Positions 4,887-16,732 of a DNA stretch of 64,000 nucleotides are shown here, piece after piece. Source of the stretch: Natranaerofaba carboxydovora (lineage in GTDB: Bacteria > Bacillota > Natranaerobiia > Natranaerobiales > Natranaerofabaceae); contig NZ_CP054394.1 of assembly GCF_022539405.1 (NCBI RefSeq), positions 932,501-996,500 of the forward strand. The letters are read 5' to 3'. Numbering within the stretch: the stretch's first letter is position 1; the number at the start of each line of letters is the position of its first letter. The notes beneath the pieces are model-generated. The model saw only the letters and a list, made by a program, of their open reading frames with translations, searched no databases and was not told the origin of the DNA. Position numbers and translations under genes: made by a program.

Positions 4887-6215
4887 ATGAGTGATTTGGT
4901 AGTAGTTGGAGGTGGCCTTGCAGGTGTAGAAGCAGCCTGGCAGGCTGCAAATCGCGGCATAAAAGTGGATCTATATGAGATGAGACCAGAAAAGATGACT
5001 CCGGCACACAAAACAAGCAATTTGGCAGAGCTTGTTTGCAGTAACAGTTTAAGAGCCTCTTCTTTAGAAAATGCAGCAGGACTTTTAAAAGAAGAGATGA
5101 AAAAGCTTGGTAGCTTAATAATGAAAATAGCTGAAAGACATCAAGTTCCCGCAGGTGGAGCTATGGCAGTTGATAGAGAGAGATTTGCGAAAGATATAAC
5201 AGAAACAATAGAAAACCATGAGAACATAAACTTAAAACGGGAAGAATTTAAAAATCTTGATGCTGAAAAACCAACTATAATTGCAACTGGACCTTTAACT
5301 TCACAAAAGCTTGTAAATGAGATCTTAAACTTTACTGATAGCAAACTTTTATATTTTTACGATGCAGCAGCACCTATTGTAACTTACGAATCTATAAATC
5401 ATAATAAAGTTTTTAGAGCATCAAGGTATGATAAAGGAACTGCGGATTATTTAAACTGTCCTATGACAAAAGAAGAATATAAGCGGTTTTATCAGGAACT
5501 GATAAATGGAGACGTAGTCCAAATGAAAGATTTTGAAAAACAAATACACTTTGAAGGTTGTATGCCCGTTGAAGTCATGGCAAAAAGAGGCGCTGAAACT
5601 TTGACTTTTGGACCTTTAAAACCAGTTGGCCTTAAAGATCCAAGGACAGGTGAAGTGCCGTATGCAGTAGCACAACTGCGTCAGGATGATAAAGAAGGAA
5701 ATCTATATAATTTAGTAGGCTTTCAGACACAGCTAAAGTGGCCGGAACAGAAAAGGATATTCAGGCTTATACCTGGATTAGAAAATGCCGAATTTGTTCG
5801 CTATGGTGTAATGCATAGAAATACTTATGTTAATTCACCATCTATATTAAAAGCAACTTATCAATTAAAAGATTATCCAAATATATTTTTAGCTGGCCAA
5901 ATTACAGGGGTTGAAGGATATATAGAATCTGCATCATCTGGAATAGTAGCGGGCATTAATGCTTCTAGATTACTTATCGAAGAGGAAACTTTAACTTTTC
6001 CAGAAGAAACAGCTCATGGAGCGCTTTCTAATTATATAACCACAGCTAGTCCAAGAAATTTTCAACCTATGAACATAAACTTTGGCTTATTGCCACCGCC
6101 TGAAGACAAAAACAAGAAAAAAGTACCAAAAAAAGAGAAAAAAGCAAAGCAAAGTGAAAAAGCGCTCTCATCTTTAGAAAATTTTATCAATGAAAATAGC
6201 TTGCGTCTTGCATAA
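4887..6215 (+). CDS. trmFO: Methylenetetrahydrofolate-tRNA-(uracil-5-)-methyltransferase TrmFO
   Basis: The folate- and FAD-dependent enzyme that forms m5U54 (ribothymidine) in the tRNA T-loop, replacing the SAM-dependent TrmA. The 442-residue protein opens with the FAD-binding GGGLAGVEAAWQ motif and contains the family stretches SNLAELVCSNS and GQITGVEGYIES. ATG with TTTGGAGG about 8 bases upstream is clear. The C-terminus ends in a lysine-rich linker and a short helix. Position between topA and xerC matches Bacillus (older name gid). Confidence 0.95.
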   Translation: MSDLVVVGGGLAGVEAAWQAANRGIKVDLYEMRPEKMTPAHKTSNLAELVCSNSLRASSLENAAGLLKEEMKKLGSLIMKIAERHQVPAGGAMAVDRERFAKDITETIENHENINLKREEFKNLDAEKPTIIATGPLTSQKLVNEILNFTDSKLLYFYDAAAPIVTYESINHNKVFRASRYDKGTADYLNCPMTKEEYKRFYQELINGDVVQMKDFEKQIHFEGCMPVEVMAKRGAETLTFGPLKPVGLKDPRTGEVPYAVAQLRQDDKEGNLYNLVGFQTQLKWPEQKRIFRLIPGLENAEFVRYGVMHRNTYVNSPSILKATYQLKDYPNIFLAGQITGVEGYIESASSGIVAGINASRLLIEEETLTFPEETAHGALSNYITTASPRNFQPMNINFGLLPPPEDKNKKKVPKKEKKAKQSEKALSSLENFINENSLRLA

Positions 6216-6262: not shown

Positions 6263-7182
6263 GTGGATGATATGCTTGGCAACAAAAAAAGAGAAGATAG
6301 TGCAATAGAGAATTATATATTTTTTTTGCAAGCTGAAAAAAACTGCTCGATATATACAATCAAAGGATATCGTAGAGATTTGTACCAGTTTTTGTTTTTT
6401 TAATTGATAATTTTAAACTAGAAACCTGGAAAGATGTAGATCACAAAATGATAAGAAGCTACTTAGCCCATCTAAAAGATAAAAGTTATAGTAAAACTAC
6501 TGTGTCAAGAAAACTATCTTCGATAAGGTCTTTTTTTAAATTTTACTCAAGAGAAAAAAATATCGAGAATAACCCCGGACGGCTCGTATCTACTCCCAAG
6601 GTAAATAAAAAATTGCCGTCTTTTTTTACAGTAAAGGAAATTAAATGGATTTTAGACGCTCCGGATAATTCGCCCTTAGGGGTTAGGGATAGAGCAATGA
6701 TGGAATTGTTTTACTCGACAGGACTTAGAATTAGTGAACTATGGCAGCTTAATATTGACAGTATTAATTTTGATGAAAAAAGCATAAAAGTAATGGGAAA
6801 AGGGAATATGGAAAGAGAAGTTTTTCTAGGAAGCTATGCAAAAAAAGCAATAGTGAGGTATCTAGAAGAAGGTAGAGGGCAATTATTAAAGAGAGAAAAT
6901 GAAACAAAAGCTCTTTTTCTTAATAAAAATGGCAGTAGGCTATCTGTAAGAAGTATCAGAAGAAGGGTAAATAAATATATCAAAAAAGCTGCTCTAGATA
7001 ATGAGGTATCCCCCCATAGTTTGAGACATACTTTTGCAACACATCTATTAAATGGGGGTGCTGATATAAGAGCAGTACAAGAGCTATTAGGACATGTGAA
7101 CATTTCCACAACTCAAACATACACCCATGTTACTAAAGACCACTTAAGAGAAGTATACAAGGACTTTCATCCAAGGGCCTAG
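6263..7182 (+). pseudogene. xerC: Tyrosine recombinase XerC, split by a frameshift at a T7 run
   Basis: XerC resolves chromosome dimers at dif. The N-terminal SAM-like domain begins at GTG 6263 (or ATG 6272, with AGGTGG before it) and reads in one frame to TAA at 6401, directly after a run of seven T (6395-6401). The rest continues in the -1 frame (FLIDNFKLETW...), giving a joined protein of about 303-306 residues, the usual XerC length. The catalytic set is intact: Arg in GLRISEL, Lys in GKGNMER, HSLRH, His in GHVNI, Tyr in TYTHV. One added T would restore the gene. A sequencing error, a true mutation or slippage at the T-run are all possible. Position before hslV matches codV/xerC in Bacillus. 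Confidence 0.85.
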
Positions 7183-7328: not shown

Positions 7329-7877
7329 TTGGAAGAGCTCCATGGAACAACTATTGTGGGAGTCAAAAATAGTGAGGGCTGTGCCCTTGCAGGTGATGGT
7401 CAGGTAACTCTTGGAAATAATACTATATTTAAGCATGGTGCAGTTAAAATAAGAAAGTTGTATAATAACAATATTATTGCAGGATTCGCAGGTTCAGTAG
7501 CAGATGCGATGACGCTTTTTGAAAAATTTGAAGCTAAACTTGAAAAGCAAAAAGGGAATATGGTAAAAGCTGCAGTAGAGTTGGCAAAGGAGTGGCGCTC
7601 AGACAAAATTTTGAGACGCCTTGAGGCTCTTTTACTTGTGGCTAACAAGGAACATTTACTTATTATATCTGGAACAGGTGAAGTTATTGAGCCTGATGAT
7701 GAGGTAGGAGCAATAGGTTCCGGAGGCCCTTATGCTTTGGGTGCGGCAAGGATGTTAAAAAAGCATACAGACCTATCAGCTAGAGAAGTTGCATATGAAG
7801 CATTAAAATCTGCATCTGAAATTTGTGTATATACAAATGACAATATTACGGTAGAAGAACTGAAAGGGGAAAAATAA
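7329..7877 (+). CDS. hslV: ATP-dependent protease proteolytic subunit HslV (ClpQ)
   Basis: Peptidase subunit of the two-component HslUV protease, an N-terminal nucleophile hydrolase forming double hexamers. The 182-residue product begins with a short propeptide and then TTIVGVK; the first Thr (residue 7) is expected to become the catalytic N-terminus after processing. AGDGQVT and the [11 protein letters not shown] segment are family hallmarks. The TTG start follows AAAGGTGG. One base separates it from hslU. Bacillus ClpQ uses serine at this position, whereas this protein has the threonine typical of most HslV. Confidence 0.95.
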
Positions 7878-7878
7878 T

Positions 7879-9330
7879 ATGCTTTTTGAAGAGTCACAGA
7901 ACCTGACTCCAAAGCAAATTGTAGAAAAACTAGACCAATTTATTATAGGTCAAAAAGAGGCCAAAAAGGCAGTCGCAATAGCCTTAAGAAATAGATATAG
8001 AAGGCAAAAGGTAAAGACTGAGCTAAAAGAAGAAATTGTTCCTAAAAACATTTTAATGATCGGTCCAACAGGAGTAGGGAAAACCGAAATTGCAAGAAGG
8101 GTCGCAAAATTAGTAAATGCTCCTTTTGTAAAAGTAGAAGCTACAAAATTCACAGAAGTAGGTTATGTTGGCCGAGATGTGGAGTCAATGATTAGAGATT
8201 TGCTTAATGAATCTTTAAGATTGGTGGAAAGCGAAAAGTTTAGAGAAGTGTATGATCAGGCCAAAAACCAGGCTGAAAAAGATATATTAAAGCTTCTTGT
8301 TCCCTGGCCGGGTAGTCAAGACAAAAGTGCTGATGAAAATAACCCCTTTAAGGCTTTCTTTGGAGGCCAAAATGAAGAAGCAGATGATGAAGAAGGTAAT
8401 AATTTTGAAAACAAGCAAGAAAATGATATAAGAGAACAAAGGAGGGAGATCAAAAGAAAGCGACGCGAATTAAAGAAAAAATTAGAAGCAGGTGAACTTG
8501 AAGAAGAATATGTAGAAATTGACATTGAAGAACAGCAATCTTTCAAAGATAATCCTCTTATGGGCCAAGGCTTTGAAGAAATGGGTATTAACTTTCAGGA
8601 TTTGTTTAGCAATTTGTTTCCTAAAAAAAAGACTAAGAAGAGACTGCCAATTCGCCAAGCTAGGGAAGTGTTGATTGAGCAGGAGTCACAGAAATTGATA
8701 GATTATGAACAAGTGCAAAAGGAAGCAATATATAGGGCAGAAAACTATGGAATTATCTTTTTAGATGAGATGGACAAAATAACAGCTTCGGCTGATAAAC
8801 ATGGGCCTGATGTTTCAAGAGAAGGTGTTCAAAGGGATATACTACCAATAGTAGAAGGTTCTACTATTAATACTAGATATGGCAGAATAAAAACTGATCA
8901 TATAATGTTTATAGGAGCAGGTGCTTTTCATGAAAAAAAACCCTCTGATATGATCCCTGAACTTCAAGGCAGGTTTCCTATAAGGGTTGAACTAAAAAGC
9001 CTTAAAAAAGAAGAATTTTATAGAATCCTTGATGAGCCTAAAAATGCTCTTTTGACACAATACAAAGTTTTACTGGAAACTGAAGGTATAAAAGTGGAAT
9101 TTAAAGAAGAGGCTATTACTGAAATTGCAAAAATGGCTGAGGAAGTAAATAGTCAAACTGAAGATATAGGCGCTAGAAGGCTTCATACCATAATGGAAAA
9201 ACTTTTTGAAGAAGTTTCTTTTCATGCACCTGATATGAAAGGGCAAAAATTATCTATAGACGAAGAGTATGTCAGACAACGATTAGAGGATCTTGTTAAA
9301 AAAGAAGACTTGAGTAGATTCATTTTATAG
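7879..9330 (+). CDS. hslU: HslU (ClpY) AAA+ unfoldase
   Basis: ATPase ring that unfolds substrates and feeds them to HslV. Walker A GPTGVGKT is at residues 62-69 and Walker [10 protein letters not shown] near 291-299. The stretch between them holds the family's inserted I-domain, here long, charged and rich in Glu/Lys. Sensor region GARRLHT and the C-terminal SRFIL tail, which inserts into HslV, are present. Length of 483 residues is slightly over the usual 440-465. Translation is probably coupled to hslV. Confidence 0.96.
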
Positions 9331-9432: not shown

Positions 9433-10230
9433 ATGAAGGGAATGAGTAGTAATTTATTAGAAAAAACACGAAGTATCAACAGGATATTGCAGAAAGCAGC
9501 AGGTCAGCCGGTAGATTTTACAGAGGTGGCAGATGTACTAAAAGATGTAATAGAAGCTAACACCTATATTGCTACAAAAAGCGGTAAGCTTTTAGGTTAT
9601 GCTCTAGTAGATCAGTTTGAATGTGAAGTAATGAAAGAAGAAGTGCTTGAAGACGGGGCTTTCCCTGAGAGTTATAACGAATATCTTTTAAGGGTTAATG
9701 AAACCAGCTATAATTTAAGACAAAAAAATAATAAATGTGTATACGCAGATAAAGGTTGCTTATTTACGGAAAAACTAACCACGATTGTCCCAATAATAGG
9801 TGGAGGAAAAAGGCTAGGATCATTGATTTTATCAAGGTTTGAAAGTGAGTTCAATGATGAGGATCTAATTCTTGCAGAAAATGGAGCTACTGTTGTAGGT
9901 ATGGAAATTCTTAGAGCCAAATCAGAAGAAATAGAAGAAGAAGCTAGAAATAAAGCGGTTGCTCAGTTAGCTCTTGGAACATTGTCATATTCTGAGCTAG
10001 AAGCAGTAGAGCATATTTTTGAAGAGCTAAATGGCAACGAAGGACTTTTGGTTGCAAGCAAGATAGCTGATAGAGTAGGAATAACAAGGTCTGTGATAGT
10101 TAACGCATTAAGAAAATTTGAGAGTGCAGGACTTATTGAATCAAGGTCACTTGGAATGAAAGGGACCTACATTAAAGTATTAAATGACCAATTATTAGAA
10201 GAGCTAAAGAAAAATAAGCATTTTAGCTAA
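9433..10230 (+). CDS. codY: GTP-sensing global transcriptional regulator CodY
   Basis: CodY represses stationary-phase, nitrogen and often motility genes when GTP and branched-chain amino acids are abundant. The 265-residue protein has the N-terminal GAF domain ([14 protein letters not shown] and [13 protein letters not shown] segments) and a C-terminal winged helix-turn-helix ([21 protein letters not shown]). It resembles Bacillus CodY throughout. Two starts are possible (ATG 9433 or ATG 9442); the second gives MSSNLLEKT, closer to the Bacillus N-terminus. A terminator follows directly, separating it from the fla/che operon. Confidence 0.97.
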
Positions 10231-15225: not shown

Positions 15226-16732
15226 AAAAACTAAAAAAAAGTCAGCAAACAAACCTGCAGCAGCGAAGACAAGGAAAAGGAAAAAGAAAGAAATTGATGA
15301 AACAGAAACTGTGTCAAGTGCAAAAAGTGCTCCTGAAAAAGAAAGTGCTGTAAAAGATGTTGATAAAACAGCTCAAACAGCTGTTAAAAGTAAGAGAGAA
15401 CCTATAACCAAAAAGCAAGTAAAAGAACCTGATACAAACAAAATCAAAAAAGCAATTAAAAAATCTAACTCGCTTCCGATTCAGGGAGAGGTGACAAGGG
15501 TTGTTGGACTTACGGTAGAAGCTAGAGGTCCTGCTACAAGGATAGGTGAGGTTTGTACCATTAGAAGTGACTCTCATGAGCTTGATTGTGAGGTTGTAGG
15601 CTTTAGAGATGAATATATTCTGTTGATGCCACTTGGTGATTTAGAAGATATCGCTCCGGGGGACAGGGTTGTTGCTTCAGGCATGCCTTTGTCTGTGCCG
15701 GTTGGAGAAGACATGGTAGGTAGGGTGCTTGATGGTGTAGGGCGTCCTCTAGATAGGAGAGGTAACTATTCATACGAAAAGTTTTATCCAATGCAGGCAA
15801 AGCCTCCTCCGCCATTAGAAAGAACTAGAATAAGCGAAACCTTGGAAACAGGTATTAAAGCAGTTGATGGAGTCTTAACAATAGGCAAGGGACAGAGAAT
15901 GGGTATTTTCTCTGGCTCGGGAGTTGGTAAAAGTACACTTCTAGGGATGATAGCTAGAAACACATCAGCAGATATAAACGTAATAGCGTTAATTGGCGAA
16001 AGAGGTAGAGAAGTTAGAGAGTTTTTGGAAAAGGACTTGGGTGAAGAAGGCCTAAAAAGAAGCATAATCGTTGTTGCTACTTCAGATCAGCCAGCCCTTG
16101 TAAGGTTAAAGGGGGGGTTGACTGCAACAGCAGTGGCTGAATACTTCAGAGATCAGGGTTATGATGTTATGTTGATGATGGATTCAGTTACCAGGTTTGC
16201 AATGGCTCAAAGAGAGATAGGTCTTGCTATTGGTGAACCGCCGACTACTAGAGGTTTTCCGCCGTCGGTATTTGCAATGTTACCAAAGTTTCTTGAACGT
16301 TCTGGTACTTCATCTAAAGGAAGCATAACAGGTTTATATACCGTGTTGGTTGATGGCGATGATTTAGACGAGCCTATCTCGGACACCGTGAGAGGTATTT
16401 TAGACGGCCATGTTGTACTTAGTAGAAGATTAGCAAGCATGAATCATTATCCCGCTATTGATGTCTTGAAAAGTATTTCCCGGGTAATGCTTGATATAGT
16501 TGATGAAGAACATCGGGAAGCTGCACACAAATTAAACGAAGCCCTTGCAGCATACGAAGAAGCAAGAGACCTTATAGAGATTGGTGCTTACAAAGAAGGA
16601 AGTAACCCCAGGGTAGACTGGGCTCTGACAAAGATTGACAAAATAAATGATTTCTTGCGTCAGGGCATAGATGAAAAAAGCGATTTTGAATCTACTGTAA
16701 AAGAACTTAAAAGTTTAATTAATGGTAGATAA
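15218..16732 (+). CDS. fliI: Flagellum-specific ATP synthase FliI
   Basis: Export ATPase related to F1-beta. Walker A SGSGVGKST lies at about residues 232-240, Walker B VMLMMDSVTR near 310, and the type III ATPase signature PSVFAMLPKFLERSG follows. At 504 residues it is some 65 longer than usual FliI because of an N-terminal extension of about 85 residues very rich in Lys, Ala and Thr before the beta-barrel domain begins (LPIQGEVTRVVG). The GTG start overlaps fliH and there is no better start downstream before the barrel domain, so the extension appears real. Confidence 0.96.
   Translation: MNKKTKKKSANKPAAAKTRKRKKKEIDETETVSSAKSAPEKESAVKDVDKTAQTAVKSKREPITKKQVKEPDTNKIKKAIKKSNSLPIQGEVTRVVGLTVEARGPATRIGEVCTIRSDSHELDCEVVGFRDEYILLMPLGDLEDIAPGDRVVASGMPLSVPVGEDMVGRVLDGVGRPLDRRGNYSYEKFYPMQAKPPPPLERTRISETLETGIKAVDGVLTIGKGQRMGIFSGSGVGKSTLLGMIARNTSADINVIALIGERGREVREFLEKDLGEEGLKRSIIVVATSDQPALVRLKGGLTATAVAEYFRDQGYDVMLMMDSVTRFAMAQREIGLAIGEPPTTRGFPPSVFAMLPKFLERSGTSSKGSITGLYTVLVDGDDLDEPISDTVRGILDGHVVLSRRLASMNHYPAIDVLKSISRVMLDIVDEEHREAAHKLNEALAAYEEARDLIEIGAYKEGSNPRVDWALTKIDKINDFLRQGIDEKSDFESTVKELKSLINGR

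Follow-up and report, generated by a model that had tools for sequence, protein, structure and literature searches.

The window analysed here is a stretch of 64,000 nucleotides (positions 932,501 to 996,500 of NZ_CP054394.1) from the genome of Natranaerofaba carboxydovora, which is represented by one contig (C1) of 3,264,732 bases and is listed as 100% complete. Translation and the positions of stop codons indicate that a CodV-type xerC gene on the plus strand (6263-7182) is a single tyrosine recombinase gene spread over two overlapping frames. The first of these begins with a GTG at 6263 and encodes 46 amino acids before a TAA at 6401-6403; this N-terminal piece (6263-6403) comprises the start of the SAM-like core-binding domain, as judged from its translation, Pfam and NCBIfam profiles and a frame 2 match in tblastn searches. 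The second is open from 6376 onwards and from its first ATG, at 6448, encodes a catalytic piece of 244 amino acids (6448-7182), recovered both as an open reading frame and in profile searches, which is devoid of approximately the first 60 residues of the protein. It contains a tyrosine recombinase catalytic domain (PF00589, 180-181 bits; 6622-7140, corresponding to C1:939122-939640) without internal stops. The deposited gene is not a single open reading frame, unlike what is expected of an XerC of the TIGR02224 equivalog family.

The point at which the frame changes could be localized by using the complete XerC of one of the two closest relatives compared (G001 and G002, which belong to the same order as N. 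carboxydovora and to a different family) as a tblastn query against the window. Residues 8-39 of the G001 protein matched frame 2 as far as 6400 (E=3e-5), and a match in frame 1, with residues 39-302, began at 6397; with the G002 protein as query the catalytic frame alone was matched (residues 36-299) at the same threshold. With the G001 query the homology hence passes from one frame to the other at 6397-6400, inside a run of seven T residues (T7; 6395-6401) that is followed by AA and is the most likely site of a one-base frame change. This agrees with the original prediction that the N-terminal and catalytic domains lie in different frames, and also with its placement of the junction at the T7; that the frames join exactly there is more than the sequence by itself dictates, as the strict bound is the region in which both frames are free of stops (6376-6403). 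The T7 is the longest run in this region, and a T5 run just 5' of it, separated from it by one G, is a candidate alternative position for the change.

The genes around xerC, all on the plus strand, are those of a conserved neighborhood. Upstream lies a putative trmFO-like gene, named on inspection (4887-6215), and downstream are three genes (7329-7877, 7879-9330 and 9433-10230) which, following the original prediction, are putatively named hslV/clpQ, hslU/clpY and codY. All four neighbors are collinear in G001 and G002, and tblastn comparisons recovered an identical order, upstream neighbor-xerC-hslV-hslU-codY, in the three genomes. This collinearity is in line with the argument from synteny of codV-clpQ-clpY-codY for recent function of the gene, a conclusion that is well supported.

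Profile analysis of the two pieces and of the protein obtained by reading through the junction suggests that a sound XerC is encoded here save for the change of frame. Against the TIGR02224 equivalog profile of NCBIfam (cut-off 335.15) the read-through protein reaches 357.1 bits, and against the XerD profile 327.7 bits, under the cut-off of 329.6 for the latter family, while the catalytic piece by itself reaches 321.2 bits and does not pass the XerC cut-off. The N-terminal piece matches positions 1-30 of PF02899 (E=0.0013; 19.3 bits, slightly under the cut-off of 22.3) and positions 3-37 of NF001399 in NCBIfam with 19.6 bits, which is far under the whole-protein cut-off, as expected of a fragment. 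The catalytic piece in turn supplies positions 47-83 of PF02899, i.e. the end of that 83-position domain, and the entire PF00589 domain. XerC proteins possess a catalytic set of the form R-K-H-x-x-R-H-Y, and this set is present in the read-through protein in an alignment to relatives that was read by eye. The alignment comprised 24 relative loci (14 unnamed and 10 of the 80 named loci described below); rows in the wrong orientation (L010, L012, L014, L015, L018 and L021) were left out, and the conclusions are drawn from L008, L009 and the remaining rows. At the junction the read-through protein aligns without a gap to the XerC proteins of G001 and G002, and no second lesion beyond the one frame change was found in xerC in the alignment. 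These scores and the alignment bear out the expectation that restoring the frame yields an XerC with all its catalytic residues.

The split is confined to N. carboxydovora among the genomes and loci compared. Of 30 relatives, 24 have a best match to XerC with an E-value below 1e-50, and in each of these 24 the stop-to-stop frame spans at least 295 codons, as against 268 in N. carboxydovora. The best match in the other six is weak (E-values of 1e-25 to 1e-40), which means that not every member of the phylum has XerC and that its loss is not unthinkable. A further set of named control loci, the best 80 of 185 confirmed, is biased in that it was retrieved with the catalytic piece as query and consists of Bacilli by title; in these best 80 of 185, xerC is unsplit in every case, and its N-terminal extension is nowhere shorter than 53 codons. 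A T run occurs at an overlapping place in both same-order relatives, as a T7 in G001, one codon off from that of N. carboxydovora in the alignment, and as a T6 in G002, and in both it lies in an open frame. By these sequence comparisons, the T run seems to be partly conserved and the split is not. Long runs are also common in intact copies of the gene: among the best 80 of the 185 named loci, all unsplit, the longest A/T run in xerC is of 7 bases in 49, 8 in 16 and 9 in one.

The abundance of A/T runs in xerC makes it a likely place for an indel. It contains eight A/T runs of at least 7 bases in 920 bp (8.7 per kb against a sample mean of 0.99), a density reached by none of 331 sampled coding segments, one of which is the catalytic piece of xerC itself. 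Within the gene, one T8 and two other T7 runs stay in frame in the alignment. The frame change is also isolated in its surroundings. When proteins of G001 and G002 were used as tblastn queries, xerC was the sole frame switch flagged among 87 reference open reading frames with a homologue in the window, a number that counts copies from G001 and from G002 separately and takes in some antisense shadow frames as well. It was likewise the sole frame switch in a homology search of a 459-kb sample of the genome against these two relatives, with the reference frames reaching about 107 distinct coding segments of the sample (56 of 59 in the window). The reverse comparison of N. carboxydovora proteins with stretches of G001 and G002 flagged no frame switch among 118 queries. 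A general collapse of homopolymers in the assembly was also looked for and not found, the run-length spectrum not being truncated relative to three relatives and the best 80 of the 185 named loci: A/T runs of length 8 and 9 occur at 21.6 and 1.1 per 100 kb in N. carboxydovora, as against 9.7 and 0.6 in G002, 13.3 and 1.7 in G001, 6.3 and 2.5 in G016, and 10.8 and 1.3 in the named loci.

Two intrinsic scans for frame changes over the same 459 kb returned 86 pairs and 44 rows, most of which are judged from start codons near the junction, rather than from one-by-one checking, to be ordinary gene overlaps; six places were read in three frames. Neither scan picked up xerC, whose N-terminal piece falls short of their thresholds, and both are hence insensitive to short ends. 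Two other places look by eye like real frame breaks. At one of these (L147, around 19189 on the minus strand; C1 around 3119188), possibly situated at a homopolymer, an acidic protein of 260 amino acids with one putative membrane segment ends at an A-rich run, after which a coding-like tail of 75 amino acids continues in a different frame; it recovered one weak partial match (E=9e-4, in G002) in eight other genomes. At the other (L132, around 16060-16090 on the minus strand; C1 around 586060-586090) the N-terminal part of a WYL/WCX-domain regulator seemingly lies in another frame. Searches with it recovered WYL/WCX matches only, all in the second piece, and it is possibly a pseudogene.

The original prediction had proposed a search for a second Xer protein and a dif site, and XerD and a dif-like site were found. 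Genome-wide, PF00589 recovered six matches, namely XerC, XerD, two distant relatives, a fragment interrupted by a stop and a partial hit below the cut-off. XerD is intact (295 amino acids; match at C1:1580907-1581629) and scores 393.3 bits against its own profile (cut-off 329.6) and 335.9 bits against that of XerC. Its gene adjoins one that, from its sequence, is putatively phosphopentomutase-like. A replacement for XerC was also sought throughout the genome, and of the four full-length tyrosine recombinases just two pass the XerC cut-off, XerC itself and, by 0.8 bit, XerD. The other two, at 92 kb and 688 kb, reach 135.5 and 147.9 bits against the cut-off of 335.15, and neither is close to dif. 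These recombinases (C1:92391 and 688608; L003 and L004), of 310 and 314 amino acids, are similar to each other by eye and by cut-off are neither XerC nor XerD; one is encoded downstream of a putative RpoD-like sigma gene.

The dif-like site, ACGTCCGATAATATATCTTATGTAAACT, is a 28-bp intergenic sequence at C1:1139927-1139954 (1501-1528 of L119) with three mismatches to a Bacillus-type consensus. It adjoins a putative LexA-like gene and follows a putative LysM-like gene. The same search returned one other match with three mismatches, at C1:488561, which is less dif-like, and a reversed control pattern gave zero matches in the genome. A second pattern, fitted to the N. carboxydovora site, found C1:1139927-1139954 again and matched seven of eight genomes, G009 being without a match; the sites in G001 and G002 are ACGTCCGATAATAAATCTTATGTAAACT and ACGTCCTATAATAAATCTTATGTAAACT, respectively. 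The N. carboxydovora site has an asymmetric pair of 11-bp arms around a 6-bp center, and its left arm is conserved: these 11 bases are identical in N. carboxydovora, G001 and G022 and differ at one position in G002, and, as three of the 11 positions are unconstrained in the search pattern, their identity is not imposed by it. In 2.5-kb bins the GC skew changes sign at the site, from +0.137 in the bin ending there to -0.088 in the one that follows; at 21 sampled places it is positive before the site, negative after it up to 2.9 Mb, with 1.92 Mb as the sole exception, and positive at 3.1 Mb. We infer that this switch in skew marks the replication terminus. Dif-like sites also occur as pairs in two other genomes. 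In G002 two such sites lie 16.7 kb apart (C2:1579850 and 1596587; L122 and L126), and just inside the second are two tyrosine recombinase matches with one stop each (1594959-1595597 and 1595772-1596461), an arrangement that, from its sequence, resembles a mobile element inserted into dif. In G016 two sites in opposite orientation (C1:1365791, plus strand, and 1509915, minus strand) are 144 kb apart.

The above observations closely recall the Xer system of Bacillus subtilis, in which XerC/CodV and XerD/RipX act at a 28-bp dif. The catalytic residues, the XerD partner and the hslV-hslU-codY order, which is presumably also that of Bacillus, are all alike, as are the two 11-bp arms and 6-bp center of the site, which lies at the switch in skew and at which recombination is predicted to occur; the deposited xerC of N. 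carboxydovora differs in being broken by a single frame change. CodV of B. subtilis is described as preferring the left arm of dif, and RipX, the counterpart of XerD, as being able to bind both half-sites (PMC5357621). The left arm is identical in N. carboxydovora and G001 even though their XerC catalytic pieces are only 58% identical, and was therefore evidently under selection until recently; this implies that XerC is working now or was very recently lost, and speaks against its replacement by another recombinase.

The split in xerC is ordinary in kind, with an error in the deposited sequence as its most likely explanation and a genuine, very recent frameshift as a close second. The original prediction had listed four readings without choosing among them; of these, the results are compatible with a base-call error and equally with a true indel of recent date, and replacement of XerC has little support. 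To the first of these we give about an even chance: xerC would be complete and ordinary, with the deposited sequence off by one base at or next to the T7 through a homopolymer error left in the assembly, and we infer that the base count at this run is in error. The living cell would then make full-length XerC, which would pair with the intact XerD at dif near the replication terminus, and the two would resolve chromosome dimers. In favor of an error are the wide conservation of the gene, the presence of one lesion with no further decay, the intact XerD and the dif-like site with its conserved left arm, the exceptional density of A/T runs of at least 7 bases, and the fact that the split is a singleton. 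For singleton frameshifts validated by homology, the authors of a survey of 1106 genomes expect sequencing errors to be the cause, and not indels (PMC3711429). The xerC split shares with this class, as it is described there, its restriction to a single genome, homology on both sides, the unshared nature of the split and the T run, and no tested feature of the gene differs from it. Against an error stand the otherwise clean assembly over about 107 coding segments, its untruncated spectrum of A/T run lengths, the weak best matches to XerC in six of 30 relatives, the T8 and T7 runs elsewhere in xerC that are in frame, and the frequency of long A/T runs in unsplit xerC of the named loci (best 80 of 185).

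Some of the same observations make it distinctly possible that the frameshift is a real one-base indel that arose very recently, when replication slipped in the isolate or culture used for sequencing. In that case XerC would be absent or truncated, with XerD and dif remaining and dimers being resolved poorly or by XerD alone, and the lesion may be reversible at the run. Besides the cleanness of the assembly as sampled, the status of xerC as the most homopolymer-dense of the 331 sampled segments, which would make it a mutational hotspot, and the two further possible frame breaks (L147 and L132) in the 459-kb sample argue for such an event. Cells in laboratory culture can do without Xer recombination. 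XerD, which lies just over the XerC cut-off and whose counterpart RipX can bind both half-sites, may also partly cover for XerC. However, the indel would have had to strike a widely conserved housekeeping gene and to have left it with no second lesion and the left arm of dif without drift.

A third, unlikely explanation is that the split gene still yields full-length XerC through slippage, either of RNA polymerase on the T7 or of the ribosome by -1 with UUU in the P-site before UAA. The frame change needed is indeed the one that a backward slip on the T run would give, and G001 and G002 have T runs of their own at the overlapping place (T7 and T6, respectively). Insertions during transcription are found in A/T runs, growing exponentially more frequent as the run lengthens (PMC5574713), and slippage may occur on runs of fewer than nine bases in some bacteria (PMC1088944), while the latter paper also finds that selection against slippage is evident in many genomes only from nine A or T onwards. 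In G001 and G002, however, no slip is needed as the frame is open, xerC is unsplit in all of the best 80 of the 185 named loci, and the G preceding the T7 spoils a tandem -1 heptamer. A search for a stimulating RNA fold downstream of and across the site found none (z of -0.11 and +0.98 relative to shuffles), and the slippage readings of the original prediction therefore gain no support from shared splits or RNA structure. Compared with known transcriptional slippage on A/T runs, such as that in Thermus dnaX (PMC1088944), the T run at the frame junction is alike, but it consists of seven T rather than nine A, the split is not conserved, and the case is known from sequence alone. Equally doubtful, if not slightly more so, is the idea that the T run is a genuine switch, with xerC phase-variable by replication slippage or full-length XerC leaked by transcriptional or ribosomal slippage.

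It is very unlikely that the catalytic piece restarts at the ATG at 6448 and works as a recombinase of 244 amino acids. Its frame is open and retains all catalytic residues, but the start of the core-binding domain is missing, the PF02899 match beginning at position 47 of 83, the score of 321.2 bits is under the XerC cut-off, and on reading the sequence there is no purine-rich stretch closer than about 14 nt 5' of the ATG, a distance too great for efficient ribosome binding. Least credible of all is a true replacement of XerC by another recombinase acting on dif: the genome does encode the two further tyrosine recombinases of full length (at 92 kb and 688 kb), as well as an XerD just over the XerC cut-off whose Bacillus counterpart can bind both half-sites (PMC5357621), but the former two score far under that cut-off and are not near dif, and dif keeps its asymmetric pair of arms with the left one conserved.

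If the deposited base count is in error, as we favor, the result would amount to a small correction to the reference genome, in the absence of which XerC would be recorded as lost by automatic annotation. If the indel is real, the isolate would be a naturally occurring xerC mutant with XerD and dif retained, and would help in studying how well a single recombinase can manage. New biology would follow only if slippage or a switch operates at the T run; were the run a genuine switch, chromosome dimer resolution would be dosed or phase-variable in Natranaerofaba carboxydovora.
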